From a virus, in the IMG/VR virus record IMGVR_UViG_3300046557_000146, positions 1 to 37,398 of that record: 37,398 nt of DNA. The stretch is one strand, 5' to 3'. The notes beneath the pieces are model-generated. The model had not been told where the DNA came from and searched no databases. It worked only from the letters and a program-made list of their open reading frames with translations. The position numbers and the translations under genes were made by a program. Positions 7,632-12,800 of this stretch are shown piece by piece; the stretch's first letter is position 1, and each line of letters opens with the position of its first letter.

Positions 7632-7645
7632 TTGCACTCGTGCAA
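7632..7645. promoter_or_regulatory. Operator-like inverted repeat
   Basis: TTGCACTCGTGCAA: 6-bp arms TTGCAC/GTGCAA with a 2-base centre, flanked by one more T/A pair. It lies 11 bases before the ATG of the acidic-protein gene, immediately upstream of its ACGGAG ribosome site. It varies from the consensus at the inner arm but keeps TTGC...GCAA. Confidence 0.65.
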
Positions 7646-7775: not shown

Positions 7776-8420
7776 TCAAAAGGGGATGTCGTCATCCATG
7801 TCGTTGTTGCGACCACCGCCGCTGCCACCGCGGCTACCGCCGCCACGGCTGCGGTCATCGCGACCATCGTCACGCTCGCTGCCGCCGCGACCGCCGCGGG
7901 TCGAACCGCGATCATCGCCGCCACGGTCGTCGTCACGGCCACGGCTGGAGCTGCCACGGCTGCTGGAGCCGCGATCATCGCCACCACGGTCATCGTCGCG
8001 ACCACGGCCACGGCTGGAGCCGCGGTCATCATCGCCACGGCCACCGCCGTTGCTGTTGTCGTTGGCCGAACCCAGCTTCATCAGCTGCTCGACGAGTGCG
8101 AACTGCGGGATGACGATCTCGGTCGAGTACTTCTCGACGCCCTGCTGATCCTGCCACTTGCGGGTCTCGATCTTGCCCTCGACGCGGACCAGGTCGCCCT
8201 TCTTGAGGTTCTTCTCGGCGTACTCGATCGTCTTCTCGGCCCAGACGGTGACGCGGTGCCACTCGGTCTTTTCCTTCCACTCGCCGGAGCGCTTGTCCTT
8301 CCAGCTCTCGCTGGTGGCGACGCTCAGGTTCGCGACGGAGCCGCCGTTCGTCATGTTCTTGACTTCGGGATCCTTGCCCAGGCGACCGATCAGGGTCGCT
8401 CGGTTCAAACTGTTAGCCAT
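7776..8420 (-). CDS. ssb: Single-stranded DNA-binding protein
   Basis: A 214-aa SSB. The OB-fold spans residues 1-110 (MANSLNRATLIGRLGKDPE, VANLSVATSESWKD, EWHRVTVWAEKT) and the protein ends in the canonical acidic tip DDDIPF used to recruit partners. The linker of about 90 residues is unusually long and made of Arg/Asp/Gly/Ser repeats (DDRGGDDRGSS, SRGRGRDDDRG), beginning with a NDN motif. It binds ssDNA at the fork and during recombination with the annealing protein. Start: AAGGAGAG lies 7-8 bases before the ATG at 8420; the ATG at 8474 is in the operator. Single-gene unit with its own promoter and a downstream hairpin. Confidence 0.95.
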   Translation of the reverse strand: MANSLNRATLIGRLGKDPEVKNMTNGGSVANLSVATSESWKDKRSGEWKEKTEWHRVTVWAEKTIEYAEKNLKKGDLVRVEGKIETRKWQDQQGVEKYSTEIVIPQFALVEQLMKLGSANDNSNGGGRGDDDRGSSRGRGRDDDRGGDDRGSSSRGSSSRGRDDDRGGDDRGSTRGGRGGSERDDGRDDRSRGGGSRGGSGGGRNNDMDDDIPF

Positions 8421-8447
8421 TGGTGGTCTCTCCTTTTCGAGGTTTGC

Positions 8448-8475
8448 ATTATCAGACGGTTTGCATTCATGCAAG
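8448..8475 (-). promoter_or_regulatory. Likely ssb promoter
   Basis: Read on the minus strand, CTTGCA (8470-8475), 16 bases, then GATAAT (8448-8453). The -35 hexamer lies inside the operator-like repeat 8461-8474 and a half-site TTGCAT overlaps the -10, so a bound repressor would block polymerase. Inferred from sequence only. Confidence 0.5.
8461..8474. promoter_or_regulatory. Operator-like inverted repeat, ssb
   Basis: TTGCATTCATGCAA: perfect 6-bp arms TTGCAT/ATGCAA. It lies between the primase-helicase stop and the ssb start, with a further half-site TTGCATT at 8444-8450. Confidence 0.7.
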
Positions 8476-8482
8476 CAAATTC

Positions 8483-10048
8483 TTAAAAAACTGGCTTGAC
8501 GAACAGGCCGGTGTTCTCGTCGAAGGCCAGAAGGGTTCGACCGGTATTGCCGGCGATGCGCTTCAGGCGGACCTTCGCGATGTTGATCGTACGGGCGTTG
8601 GGGTTCTCCTCGTCGCCGCCGAGCACGATGATGCCCAGGTCCGGCTTGTTAGCCCAGTGAGCCGAGTCTGAGATCGAATAGAGGCCGGGCTCGGTGTCGC
8701 CCGTGATCTTGGTCGGATGCGCAACTACCACCACACACACTCCGAATTGTTTCGCGAACCGTTTCATCTTCTTGATCATCTTGCCGACGTATTCGGTCAG
8801 CGAGATGTTCATGGGTCGGTTGTGCTCAAGCTCGTTCCAGGGGTCGATGATCAGCATGCGGACGCCGTCGCGGAACACCGCGGCAGCTGCGCACTCCAGC
8901 AGGAAGTCGACGTCGATGTCGAAGTCCTTGGTCTCGTCGTAGTCGATGAACCGATAATACCTCTCGACGAAGGCCTCGGCTCTCTTCTTCTCTTCGAACG
9001 TCCAGTCCTTGCGCGGCTTCTCCAGGAAGGCCGTCATCAGCTCGTGCGCCAGGAACGGCTTGACGTCCTTCTCGCCCGAAAAAATGGCAACCGGCCACTT
9101 GTGCTTCTTCGCGAGCAGCACGGAGGCCTGGTTGATCAGCGTCGACTTACCGACGTTGGGGACGCCGGTAGCGACGACGAACTGGCCGCCGTAGAACTTC
9201 ATCAGAAGATCAAGCTCTTCCGACAGACCAATCTCGGCCATCTCCGGCATCTCCATTTCCGGATAGTCGGAGAGGCGGAACAGACCGTTGACGGGCCACG
9301 GCTTGGCGTTGTCGATCATCTCCCGGACGCGCTCGACGCCGAGATATTTCTTGACCTCGTTCAGATCCTTTGGGGCTCTGAAGGCCCCCTTGTTCTTCTT
9401 GTCGGGGACGACCTCGTCCTTCGGGTACTCGACCCAGAAGCACTTCGGCGCGCCGAGACGTCTAACCAGTTCCTTGGCCAGGCGCTGACCTGGCTCGTCC
9501 GCATCGGTGCAGATGATGTGGTACTTGACCTCCATCAGCTGGCCGTAGAGGCGAGCCATGAACGAGAACTTATCGTCGTCGTCGGGATCGATATCCCGAG
9601 CATCATCCGGCACCGGTATCAGCTTGCCCTTGGCATCGCGAGCCGGCGGCGCACCATCGGGCACCGAGATGATCGTCTCGTAGCCGGACTCCTTGCCGGC
9701 CTGAGTGTCGAACTCACCCTCGGTCCAGATCAGCGACTCCTGGCCGGTGCTGAGCATCTCCATCAGCGCGGGGTCGAACAGGACGTCAGCGTTGTAGACG
9801 GTCTTCACAGCGTCGCGGCGCTGCATGAACCGGCGCTCGCCGTCCTTCGACCAGCGGTACTTGGTGTTTACCTCGATACCGTGTTCGTAATACGGGAAGC
9901 AGAGAACGTTGCCGTGCTCGTCGGGCTCAACGATTACGCGGTCCTGCGAATCTCGCGAGAGACGCCCGCTGTAGTGCCCCATAGCCGCCGACATTTCCAC
10001 GCTCAGGCCGCGGTCCTCGATCCCCCTGGCGTGCTTCTCGTTTAGCAT
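8483..10048 (-). CDS. Primase-helicase (Twinkle/T7 gp4-like)
   Basis: A 521-aa replicative primase-helicase. Linker KHARGIEDRGLSVEMSAAMG comes first, then a TOPRIM-type region with WTEGEFD (109-114) and TDADEPG (181-187), then a RecA/DnaB helicase core with Walker A GVPNVGKST (295-303), Walker B LIIDPWNE (399-406) and VVVAHPTK. It lacks its own zinc-binding domain: that domain is encoded just upstream in a different frame. The ATG at 10048 has only a weak ribosome site, and an in-frame TAG sits four codons before it. The real product may therefore start here by coupling, or arise by frameshifting from the zinc-ribbon gene. Confidence 0.9.
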   Translation of the reverse strand: MLNEKHARGIEDRGLSVEMSAAMGHYSGRLSRDSQDRVIVEPDEHGNVLCFPYYEHGIEVNTKYRWSKDGERRFMQRRDAVKTVYNADVLFDPALMEMLSTGQESLIWTEGEFDTQAGKESGYETIISVPDGAPPARDAKGKLIPVPDDARDIDPDDDDKFSFMARLYGQLMEVKYHIICTDADEPGQRLAKELVRRLGAPKCFWVEYPKDEVVPDKKNKGAFRAPKDLNEVKKYLGVERVREMIDNAKPWPVNGLFRLSDYPEMEMPEMAEIGLSEELDLLMKFYGGQFVVATGVPNVGKSTLINQASVLLAKKHKWPVAIFSGEKDVKPFLAHELMTAFLEKPRKDWTFEEKKRAEAFVERYYRFIDYDETKDFDIDVDFLLECAAAAVFRDGVRMLIIDPWNELEHNRPMNISLTEYVGKMIKKMKRFAKQFGVCVVVVAHPTKITGDTEPGLYSISDSAHWANKPDLGIIVLGGDEENPNARTINIAKVRLKRIAGNTGRTLLAFDENTGLFVKPVF

Positions 10049-10253: not shown

Positions 10254-11074
10254 CAGATCGCCATCCGCTTGCTGGGCGGACCCTTCTTCGACTTCTTGTT
10301 GTCGAACTGGTCGTCCCAGCGCTGGCCGTGGATGAACTTGTCCGGCGCCATCATGAACTCGAGTTCTTCGCAGCTGGCGACGTATCGGCGGACACCATCC
10401 ATGATGGTCGTGAACTCGACCTTGTCCTCCCTGAAGACCCGGTTGAGCTTCGTCATGGCGATGGCCTTCGCCACCTTCTTCGGCCACTCGCTCCAGAACT
10501 GCTCATGATAATCATCAGGCCAAGTCGAGGTCCTGCGCTTCTTCGGCGCAGCGGTTCTAGCTTGCGGTTCTGGTGGTGGTTCTAAGTGGTGGTTCAAGGT
10601 GTCAGGCTCGCTAACACCCCCCTGTTCGTCAGACGAACACCCCCTGTTAGGCTCGCTAACACCCCCCTGTTCGTCAGACGAACACCCGGTGTCATCGTCG
10701 CGAACACGGGGGGCGTTCGTAAAACGAACACGGGGTACGAAGGGCGGACAGGCGTCCGGATCTTTGTAGAAGAGGGTCTGGTCGACGGCCGGATTGTCGT
10801 CGATCAGCAGCAGGTACTCGGATGATCGCGTGCCGCCATTGGCGTGCTTACGGCCGGTCGCGATGATCAGCCCGATGTCCTGGAGGTAGCCGAGGTTGAT
10901 GTTGACCGTGGGTCGGCTCAGGCCAGTGATCTTGGCGATGATGGTCTGGCGCGGGAAAGCGGTGTCCTCGTCGCTGGCGAAGTCGGCCAGCACCAACAGG
11001 ATGTGGCGCATGGTCGACGTCAGCTCTTTGCAGTCGCCAAGGTGCTTGGCCCAGTTGATTGCTCTGATGCTCAT
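10253..11074 (-). CDS. Replication initiator, HTH plus lambda O/DnaT-like C-terminus
   Basis: A 273-aa protein. Residues 1-90 hold a winged HTH of the phage replication-protein type (MSIRAINWAKHLG, MRHILLVLADFASDED, PRQTIIAKITGLSRPTVN). Residues 130-159 are two 15-residue repeats (GCSSDEQGGVSEPNR type) encoded by the iteron-like array at 10601-10729. The C-terminal 80 residues (FWSEWPKKVAKAIAM, ending FIHGQRWDDQ) resemble the helicase-loading part of such proteins. It probably binds the origin within its own gene and loads the primase-helicase encoded downstream. Start: ACGGAACGAC precedes the ATG at 11074; upstream frame to 11158 runs through the operator. Confidence 0.75.
   Translation of the reverse strand: MSIRAINWAKHLGDCKELTSTMRHILLVLADFASDEDTAFPRQTIIAKITGLSRPTVNINLGYLQDIGLIIATGRKHANGGTRSSEYLLLIDDNPAVDQTLFYKDPDACPPFVPRVRFTNAPRVRDDDTGCSSDEQGGVSEPNRGCSSDEQGGVSEPDTLNHHLEPPPEPQARTAAPKKRRTSTWPDDYHEQFWSEWPKKVAKAIAMTKLNRVFREDKVEFTTIMDGVRRYVASCEELEFMMAPDKFIHGQRWDDQFDNKKSKKGPPSKRMAI
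10601..10729. other. Iteron-like palindrome array, putative replication origin
   Basis: Inside the initiator gene. Perfect palindromes GTTCGTCAGACGAAC at 10624-10638 and 10669-10683, GTTCGTAAAACGAAC at 10715-10729, and GTTAGGCTCGCTAAC at 10646-10660 with a one-mismatch copy at 10601-10615. Centres fall every 22-23 bp, with a degenerate site at 10691-10705 filling the next position. Spacers are C-runs such as ACCCCCCT. A 39-bp direct repeat (10604-10642, 10649-10687) has a 45-bp period. Position inside an initiator gene parallels lambda ori in gene O. Confidence 0.7.
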
Positions 11075-11100: not shown

Positions 11101-11129
11101 CTTGACGCCTCTTGCGGGTTGGTGTACTT
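11101..11129 (+). promoter_or_regulatory. Possible promoter of the resolvase gene
   Basis: CTTGAC at 11101-11106, 17 bases, then GTACTT at 11124-11129. The -35 matches the alphaproteobacterial form well, the -10 poorly. The start of transcription would fall inside the operator-like repeat at 11128. Inferred. Confidence 0.35.
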
Positions 11130-11141
11130 GCACGAATGCAA
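11128..11141. promoter_or_regulatory. Operator-like inverted repeat between divergent genes
   Basis: TTGCACGAATGCAA, followed at 11146 by a half-site AAATGCAAG. It lies between the minus-strand initiator operon and the plus-strand resolvase gene and could control both. Confidence 0.65.
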
Positions 11142-11812: not shown

Positions 11813-12086
11813 AAACTCCGGCCTGCACCGTTCCATAAACCATTGATTTTGTTTGATTTTCTTCCCGTTTGCAGAACGGACGGGGAACAAAAAAACATTT
11901 GCAATCGCGCGAAACCTATCGTATTTGCCGTTGTTAGCATCCAAGCAAATGGATGGACACGGAAAACGATGACTGCAAACGCTACCAGATTTCAGAAGTC
12001 CCTAACGGTTCACAATTGTACACAGGCCACATCCGGGCCTCACTAATTATTTGTTATGCGAAAACCATGATATTGGAGGATCGCAA
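11813..12086 (+). promoter_or_regulatory. Upstream region of the repressor gene
   Basis: A 274-bp AT-richer gap with no convincing gene. A possible plus-strand promoter is TTGCAA (11899-11904), 17 bases, TATTTG (11922-11927). A degenerate copy of the operator, TAGCATCCAAGCAA (11935-11948, 12 of 14), would lie at or just after the start, suggesting autoregulation. Further on, AGGCC/GGCCT (12024-12040) can form a small leader hairpin. Promoter and operator assignments are inferred. Confidence 0.4.
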
Positions 12087-12800
12087 ATGGCATTGGCACA
12101 AATGAAAAAAGCACAGACCCCGAAGGAGATTGTGATCGAGTGGATCGATCACATTCTTGATCGAAAGAAGTGGACAGGAACGGATCTGGCCCGGCACTCG
12201 GATATCGCGCCGTCAACGATCTTGCGCCTTCTCAACAATCCAAAGCACCGTTTTGTCCCTACGGTGTCGACGCTCCAGAAGATCGCGGTCGGATCAGGAT
12301 ACCCGATCCCGAAGAAGGTGATGGAAGCTCTCGGCGCCGAGGGTGAAGCTCGGGCCGACGCTCCTACGGAAATCGAGCCGGACAACATCCGGCGGGTCAA
12401 CGTCCGCACCGCACGTCAGGCGACGGTCGAGCTGCGTCATGTCTCGTCGCTGCCTCAGGCGTTGCAGTCGGCGGCGAGCCCACGGCGTGAGGGGTACGTG
12501 CCTGCTCCGCCCCAGCTCGAAGGGGATGAGACGGCGTTCGCGTTCCACATGCCGGACAGCTCTCTTGGCGCTTGGGTTAAGACAGGTCAGCTGATGTATG
12601 CCACCAAGCAGCGTGATCCGGTGCCCGGTGACCTCGTCGTGATCACCGACAAGAACGAGAAGACCCGGGTTCGGCTTCTGTTGGACATCACGGAGAACGG
12701 CCTCAAGCTGTCGAAGTCGATACCGGAGAAGGAAGATGAGGCCATGCCCTTCGATGACATCAAGGATATCGCGATCGTCGCGATGACCTGCCGTATCTGA
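12087..12800 (+). CDS. Phage repressor, HTH plus S24-like domain
   Basis: A 237-aa CI/LexA-like regulator. An N-terminal HTH (about 31-53: TGTDLARHSDIAPSTILRLL) is followed by a linker and a C-terminal S24/LexA-like beta domain (HMPDSSLGAWVKTGQLMY, then VPGDLVVITD). The serine region is present (Ser158/Ser159), but where the family has the catalytic Lys in V-K-R-L this protein reads TRVRLLLD, so self-cleavage may be lost. No Ala-Gly cleavage pair is obvious in the linker. It is the best candidate to bind the repeated TTGCATTCAAGCAA sites. Start: TTGGAGG lies 7 bases before the ATG at 12087. Confidence 0.8.
   Translation: MALAQMKKAQTPKEIVIEWIDHILDRKKWTGTDLARHSDIAPSTILRLLNNPKHRFVPTVSTLQKIAVGSGYPIPKKVMEALGAEGEARADAPTEIEPDNIRRVNVRTARQATVELRHVSSLPQALQSAASPRREGYVPAPPQLEGDETAFAFHMPDSSLGAWVKTGQLMYATKQRDPVPGDLVVITDKNEKTRVRLLLDITENGLKLSKSIPEKEDEAMPFDDIKDIAIVAMTCRI

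Follow-up and report, generated by a model that had tools for sequence, protein, structure and literature searches.

A putative phage replication origin within the initiator gene, composed of palindromic iterons and an array of AACC repeats

The window, the whole stretch of 37,398 nucleotides analysed here (IMG/VR record IMGVR_UViG_3300046557_000146), carries on its minus strand a gene predicted to encode an O-like initiator of phage replication with an HTH_36 winged helix (Table 1). Besides PHROG 270, the protein matches PHROG 1032 and 391, which are likewise phage replication-initiation families. HTH_36 was its sole Pfam domain. The Pfam N-terminal family of lambda O proper was not found, unlike PHROG families named O-like, which do match. 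In the AlphaFold2 model the winged helix and the helical C-terminal domain are connected by a linker (aa 96-180) that is modelled with low confidence and is predicted to be disordered. A sequence search of solved structures with the initiator gave no match, and a fold search with the model retrieved generic winged helices only (MarR/Fur-type). Genes for a primase/helicase and a single-strand DNA-binding protein lie downstream, and a RuvC-like gene is divergent from the initiator gene. GC skew across the 37-kb window was too weak for placing an origin. Two viral contigs (L002 and L003) contain the initiator gene without a base difference and with upstream flanks that are 99.9-100% identical, and thus represent the same virus sampled more than once.

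Table 1. Features at the initiator locus (window positions) and the values supporting them.
Feature	Position	Strand	Support
Predicted replication initiator gene, 273 aa	10253-11074	-	HTH_36 1.6e-7; PHROG 270 replication initiation protein 4.1e-31; AlphaFold2 model
Predicted winged-helix DNA-binding domain, aa 1-95	10790-11074	-	pLDDT ~90 in most blocks; HTH_36 match 17-70
Predicted helical C-terminal domain, aa 185-235	10370-10522	-	AlphaFold2 pLDDT ~83
Iteron 1, GTTCGTAAAACGAAC	10715-10729		6/6 arm pairs
Iteron 2, degenerate	10691-10705		3/6 arm pairs
Iteron 3, GTTCGTCAGACGAAC	10669-10683		6/6 arm pairs
Iteron 4, GTTAGGCTCGCTAAC	10646-10660		5/6 as 15-mer; TGTTAG..CTAACA 6/6 over 17 bp
Iteron 5, GTTCGTCAGACGAAC	10624-10638		6/6 arm pairs
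Iteron 6, GTCAGGCTCGCTAAC	10601-10615		4/6 arm pairs
45-bp tandem duplication, copies 10600-10644 and 10645-10689	10600-10689		93% identical
Second array, four AACC on the coding strand (10591-10594, 10578-10581, 10566-10569, 10553-10556)	10553-10594	-	P 0.003, codon resampling
Primase/helicase gene, next downstream of initiator	8483-10048	-	PHROG 239 DNA primase/helicase 8.5e-69; DnaB_C 1.2e-6
Single-strand DNA-binding protein gene	7776-8474	-	Pfam SSB 2.2e-35
Operator-like palindrome TTGCACGAATGCAA, one of ten, between initiator and divergent RuvC-like gene	11128-11141

Six 15-mer sites lie mid-gene at 10601-10729. The palindromes given in a preliminary description of this DNA are present in the record, with GTTAGGCTCGCTAAC corrected to five of six arm pairs as a 15-mer. 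A centre spacing of 22-23 bp had been reported, which holds for the first four steps (23, 22, 23 and 22 bp); the last step is 24 bp. The 45-bp period described there was also recovered, as the tandem duplication listed in Table 1. Two alternating recognition types, A and B, had been distinguished on top of this period, and these had to be given up. Both are one degenerate site, TGTTMG(N5)CKAACA, read in different frames within the 45-bp duplication, and the alternation arises because a two-site unit was duplicated in tandem. Since B in the frame of A would hold stop codons, the reading frame limits which variant stands where. The core GTTCGTNNNACGAAC occurs at three places in the 37,398-base record, all of them in the array, while the reversed control sequence does not occur.

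The iterons encode aa 115-159 and thus fall inside the linker. In order to separate DNA-level signal from coding, the protein was held fixed and codons were redrawn from the phage's own usage. The linker contains four perfect 6-pair palindromes compared to a mean of 0.41 in the resampled sequences (P ~1e-4). Across the six sites 30 of 36 arm positions are paired and the maximum in 20,000 resamplings was 28, a figure that is somewhat favoured by the six registers having been taken from the sequence itself. A laxer greedy count allowing one mismatch discriminated weakly (4 vs 1.19 expected, P 0.008) and was replaced by the stricter arm-pair count; even by this laxer measure, the top-scoring 140-nt windows of the record are those in the linker stretch. 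The iteron array goes beyond the needs of the encoded protein.

Immediately after the last iteron, on its 3' side, the coding strand has the sequence TTGAACCACCACTTAGAACCACCACCAGAACCGCAAGCTAGAACC and with it a second array, of four AACC repeats. Their steps are 13, 12 and 13 nt, which places them in frames 0, 1, 1 and 2. The array encodes aa 160-174, still within the linker, and the AT content of this stretch is 49% in a gene with ~40% AT. The preliminary description had let the proposed origin end with the palindromes; its array at 10601-10729 stands, but the proposed origin reaches beyond 10601 to include the AACC array at 10553-10594, which had been missed.

Both elements were followed in relatives of the phage. 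Bradyrhizobium phage BDU-MI-1 (KY940711) has the same gene order and an initiator that is 47% identical. Like the window it carries iterons, at about equal spacing, and four AACC repeats in the initiator linker, but its iteron arms read TGTCA..TGACA, compared to GTTCG..CGAAC in the window, and the 45-bp duplication is absent. Relatives that lose the palindromes had been named beforehand as evidence against an origin. Such a loss is seen in part, in one of eight related clusters: L101 (6001-6708) has one iteron site left, possibly after deletion between repeats, and retains all four AACC repeats. The other seven (BDU-MI-1, L017, L018, L019, L097, L102 and L103) keep the iteron array in the linker, with other arm sequences (TGTCA..TGACA). 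The AACC array is conserved among the relatives, L101 included. More distant initiators, from phages of Pseudomonas, Arthrobacter, Rhodococcus, Moraxella, Vibrio and others, carry different repeat families in the same linker, and many iterons of the Pseudomonas-type relatives are direct repeats with half sites. Because imperfect or direct-repeat iterons are so common among relatives, simple palindrome counts were significant in only some of 24 initiator clusters. The 5-mers most enriched over synonymous shuffles in 24 clusters were GGGTG (75 vs 20.9) and GGGGT (66 vs 18.8). Among 75 non-redundant initiators, winged-helix identity correlated with iteron similarity (r 0.64, a statistic that ignores kinship), and most of the strongest covarying columns, computed in the same way without regard to kinship, are found close to the recognition helix or in the wing. 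This covariation fits recognition of the iterons by the winged helix; the single-column signal is suggestive only.

The AACC array was then surveyed across phages. In 24 initiator clusters gathered by protein alone, 39 AACC steps of 11-13 nt were found against 6.8 expected. Steps of 11, 12 and 13 nt occurred 11, 10 and 18 times (synonymous shuffles predict 1.05, 3.28 and 2.45) and fall in each of the three frames. Conversely, the DNA pattern GAACCRTC-N(2-6)-GAACCRTC-N(2-6)-GAACC was run on viral contigs without protein information. Its specificity was judged by the genes matched, since the raw match counts of the AACC and control patterns were uninformative. Among the matches listed, 52 of 80 loci lie in sense within initiator ORFs, compared to 0 of 80 listed for a control pattern of equal composition. 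The listed matches cover 71 ORFs of at least 110 aa; 48 of them gave matches to PHROG replication-initiation families and 46 to HTH_36. All full-length ORFs among the matches listed that have a step not divisible by 3 are initiators (34/34); the profile behind this last figure was refined once with first-round matches, and 48/71 and 46/71 are the independent check. In bacterial genomes 30 of 63 listed matches fall in initiators, and the rest are mostly near-perfect 11-bp tandem repeats outside them. Such GAACCRTCNNN repeats outside phage initiators (L346, L348, L349, L352, L360 and others) are a different kind of repeat.

Initiator matches were found in Pseudomonadota, Actinomycetota, Verrucomicrobiota, Hydrogenedentota and a Rhodothermus-like genome, host labels being provisional as they derive from record titles and include several metagenome bins. 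In every one of 63 non-redundant cases the AACC array is preceded on its 5' side by iteron-type repeats, with 53.0 repeated 7-mer positions vs 5.7. AT content in these 63 phages is 0.52 within the array and ~0.40 beside it. The arrays contain 3-5 copies with step lengths ranging from 10 to 14 nt, and where the base after GAACCRTC is unforced it is A in 80% of units. The iterons upstream vary between phages and the AACC sequence is constant. The gene that follows AACC-type initiators also varies, encoding a DnaC-like loader, a DnaB-like helicase, a primase/helicase or a P-like loader. Not all initiators have the array: of 43 HTH_36/O-like ORFs from an independent genome sample, ~10-13 have it on visual inspection and 5 reach P 0.05 in a shuffling test. 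It is absent from lambda and P22. The window fits the combination seen in this survey, an HTH_36 domain followed by an iteron array and then by coding-strand AACC repeats at 11-13 nt. Iterons and AACC array occur in fixed order and orientation, are common to other phages, and both go beyond the demands of the protein.

The arrangement resembles known intragenic origins. In lambda, O binds inverted-repeat iterons and a neighbouring AT-rich tract opens (PMC5043065); O also binds single-stranded DNA of that AT-rich region (PMC7466680; PMC5043065). Like the window, lambda ori in gene O has palindromic iterons ~20-24 bp apart in the middle of the gene and replication genes next; the lambda opening region lies 3' of the iterons (PMC5043065, PMC7466680). 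The inverted repeats of the window have the spacing and the place within the initiator gene expected of a lambda-type intragenic origin. The window differs in having an HTH_36 initiator instead of the O type, unrelated iterons, an AACC array where lambda has the purine/AT tract, and a primase/helicase rather than P as the next gene. The P22 origin in gene 18 likewise lies in the middle of the gene of an O-like initiator, with palindromic repeats followed by AT-rich DNA and a helicase gene next; unlike the window it has no AACC array, and its opening region contains A-rich repeats of the AACAAAAGACA type. Annotated lambda iterons and the P22 origin occupy the same place in the initiator gene, with AT-rich DNA adjoining, so that the comparison with lambda O and its ori made earlier holds. 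In the window, the AACC array takes the position of the AT-rich opening tract of lambda and P22. Within the AT-rich stretch after the iterons, P22 (L452:2841-3020) and lambda (L104:509-545) carry ACAAAAGA-type short repeats ~14-15 nt apart, possibly another repeat code at the same place.

Other origin types are less similar. In repABC plasmids oriV lies inside repC, and replication is lost when its A+T region is mutated silently (PMC3155836). This shares with the window an origin within the initiator gene, but it is a plasmid origin without iterons and with an unrelated initiator. Iteron plasmid origins have direct-repeat iterons bound by monomers together with DnaA boxes, whereas the sites of the window are palindromic. 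The unwinding elements of oriC and RK2 are short direct repeats of ~13 nt that adjoin initiator sites and whose single strands are bound there (PMC5043065; PMC4081077). The array of the window differs from these 13-mers in its AACC unit, its 11-13 nt step, its moderate AT content and its position within coding sequence.

We therefore read 10553-10729 as the probable replication origin of the phage, intragenic like lambda ori and placed in the part of the initiator gene that encodes the disordered linker, with a probability of about 0.8. This reading is based on the initiator family, the replication genes in the neighbourhood, iterons beyond codon constraint and the linker arrays of relatives. 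Initiator families and linker arrays, together with the position of the lambda and P22 origins, likewise lend good comparative support to the earlier proposal of an origin that is embedded in the gene of its own initiator and under a double constraint. The N-terminal winged helix would bind the palindromes, probably as dimers, and wrap or bend them. The strain would open the adjoining AACC stretch, and the coding-strand AACC repeats may then be kept single-stranded, either by the initiator or by some host factor of wide occurrence, during loading of the primase/helicase that the next gene encodes. Opening may be assisted by transcription from the initiator promoter, as in lambda. Iteron sequences would change from phage to phage along with the winged helix, and the AACC repeats would not.

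Other explanations of the repeats were considered. They could be purely coding, reflecting a low-complexity linker that expanded by slippage while the DNA itself has no role. The linker is predicted to be disordered and contains a recent 45-bp duplication, and in-frame 12-nt GAACC coding repeats do occur elsewhere, e.g. in T4-like portal genes. However, iteron pairing exceeds codon resampling, and AACC steps of 11 and 13 nt shift the repeated DNA from one frame to another; a single DNA motif of Arthrobacter phage Jamun, for instance, encodes RTV, EPS and NRP. Moreover, the DNA motif is kept in distant phages while the protein varies. The resampling and the frame changes speak against a coding-only origin of the repeats, which we reject as highly improbable. 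It is also very unlikely that the palindromes serve autoregulation of the initiator, as operators or RNA hairpins acting as roadblock or attenuator, and mark no origin. Winged-helix proteins often bind palindromic operators, the model resembles winged helices of the MarR/Fur type, and each palindrome could fold as a 6-bp mRNA hairpin. Yet the array lies mid-gene, away from the promoter, and a different operator-like palindrome is present upstream. The direct-repeat and half-site iterons of Pseudomonas-type relatives would form no hairpins, and the constant order from iterons to AACC repeats, with replication genes next, suits origins.

A further question concerns the function of the second array within the proposed origin. 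We propose that the AACC array is an opening and single-strand recognition element. Alternatively, it might consist of double-stranded sites for a host protein, or be a loading signal for helicase or primase, instead of single-stranded sites of the initiator. We consider this possible, though rather less probable than not. The 11-13 nt step comes close to a helical turn, and an array that stays constant despite differing iterons may answer to a conserved factor. The step length of 10-14 nt is loose for fixed helical phasing, however, and the varying downstream gene, with hosts spanning five phyla by record title, argues against one specific loader. Since the following gene is of four kinds, a single loader is a less likely reader of the AACC repeats than the initiator or some general host factor.

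To our knowledge, the site and manner of replication initiation have been worked out for only a few model phages. Origins within phage initiator genes are known from lambda and P22, and the window appears to be a new example with iterons of its own. The shared AACC array may be a new and general element. Its novelty is provisional: a search of mostly open-access literature found no published description, only unrelated primer sequences. We tentatively suggest, at slightly below even odds, that HTH_36-class initiators share a two-module origin in the linker, in which phage-specific iterons are combined with a universal AACC (GAACCRTCA) array with steps of 11-13 nt. The array would be kept at the DNA level in all frames, across phages of at least five bacterial phyla, as a code for strand opening and single-strand recognition, comparable in phages to the oriC/RK2 13-mers or the DnaA-trio. 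A single linker coding sequence would thereby provide a protein tether, an array of initiator sites and a probable opening element. Variable iterons next to constant AACC repeats offer a DNA signature by which putative origins may be located from sequence in uncultured phages and prophages, and pose the testable question of what reads the AACC repeats.

Apart from the iterons, the window contains ten 14-mer palindromes of the TTGCATGAATGCAA type (0.39 expected), at 7632, 8461, 11128, 15532, 17532, 18221, 25969, 29311, 29860 and 33821. Several are located just upstream of gene starts, e.g. those of the SSB and initiator genes. A phage regulator, perhaps the HTH protein encoded at 12051-12800, likely uses them as operators, and the TTGCACGAATGCAA site could govern transcription through the putative origin. 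In BDU-MI-1, L099 and L103, too, a palindrome of this same type precedes the initiator gene.
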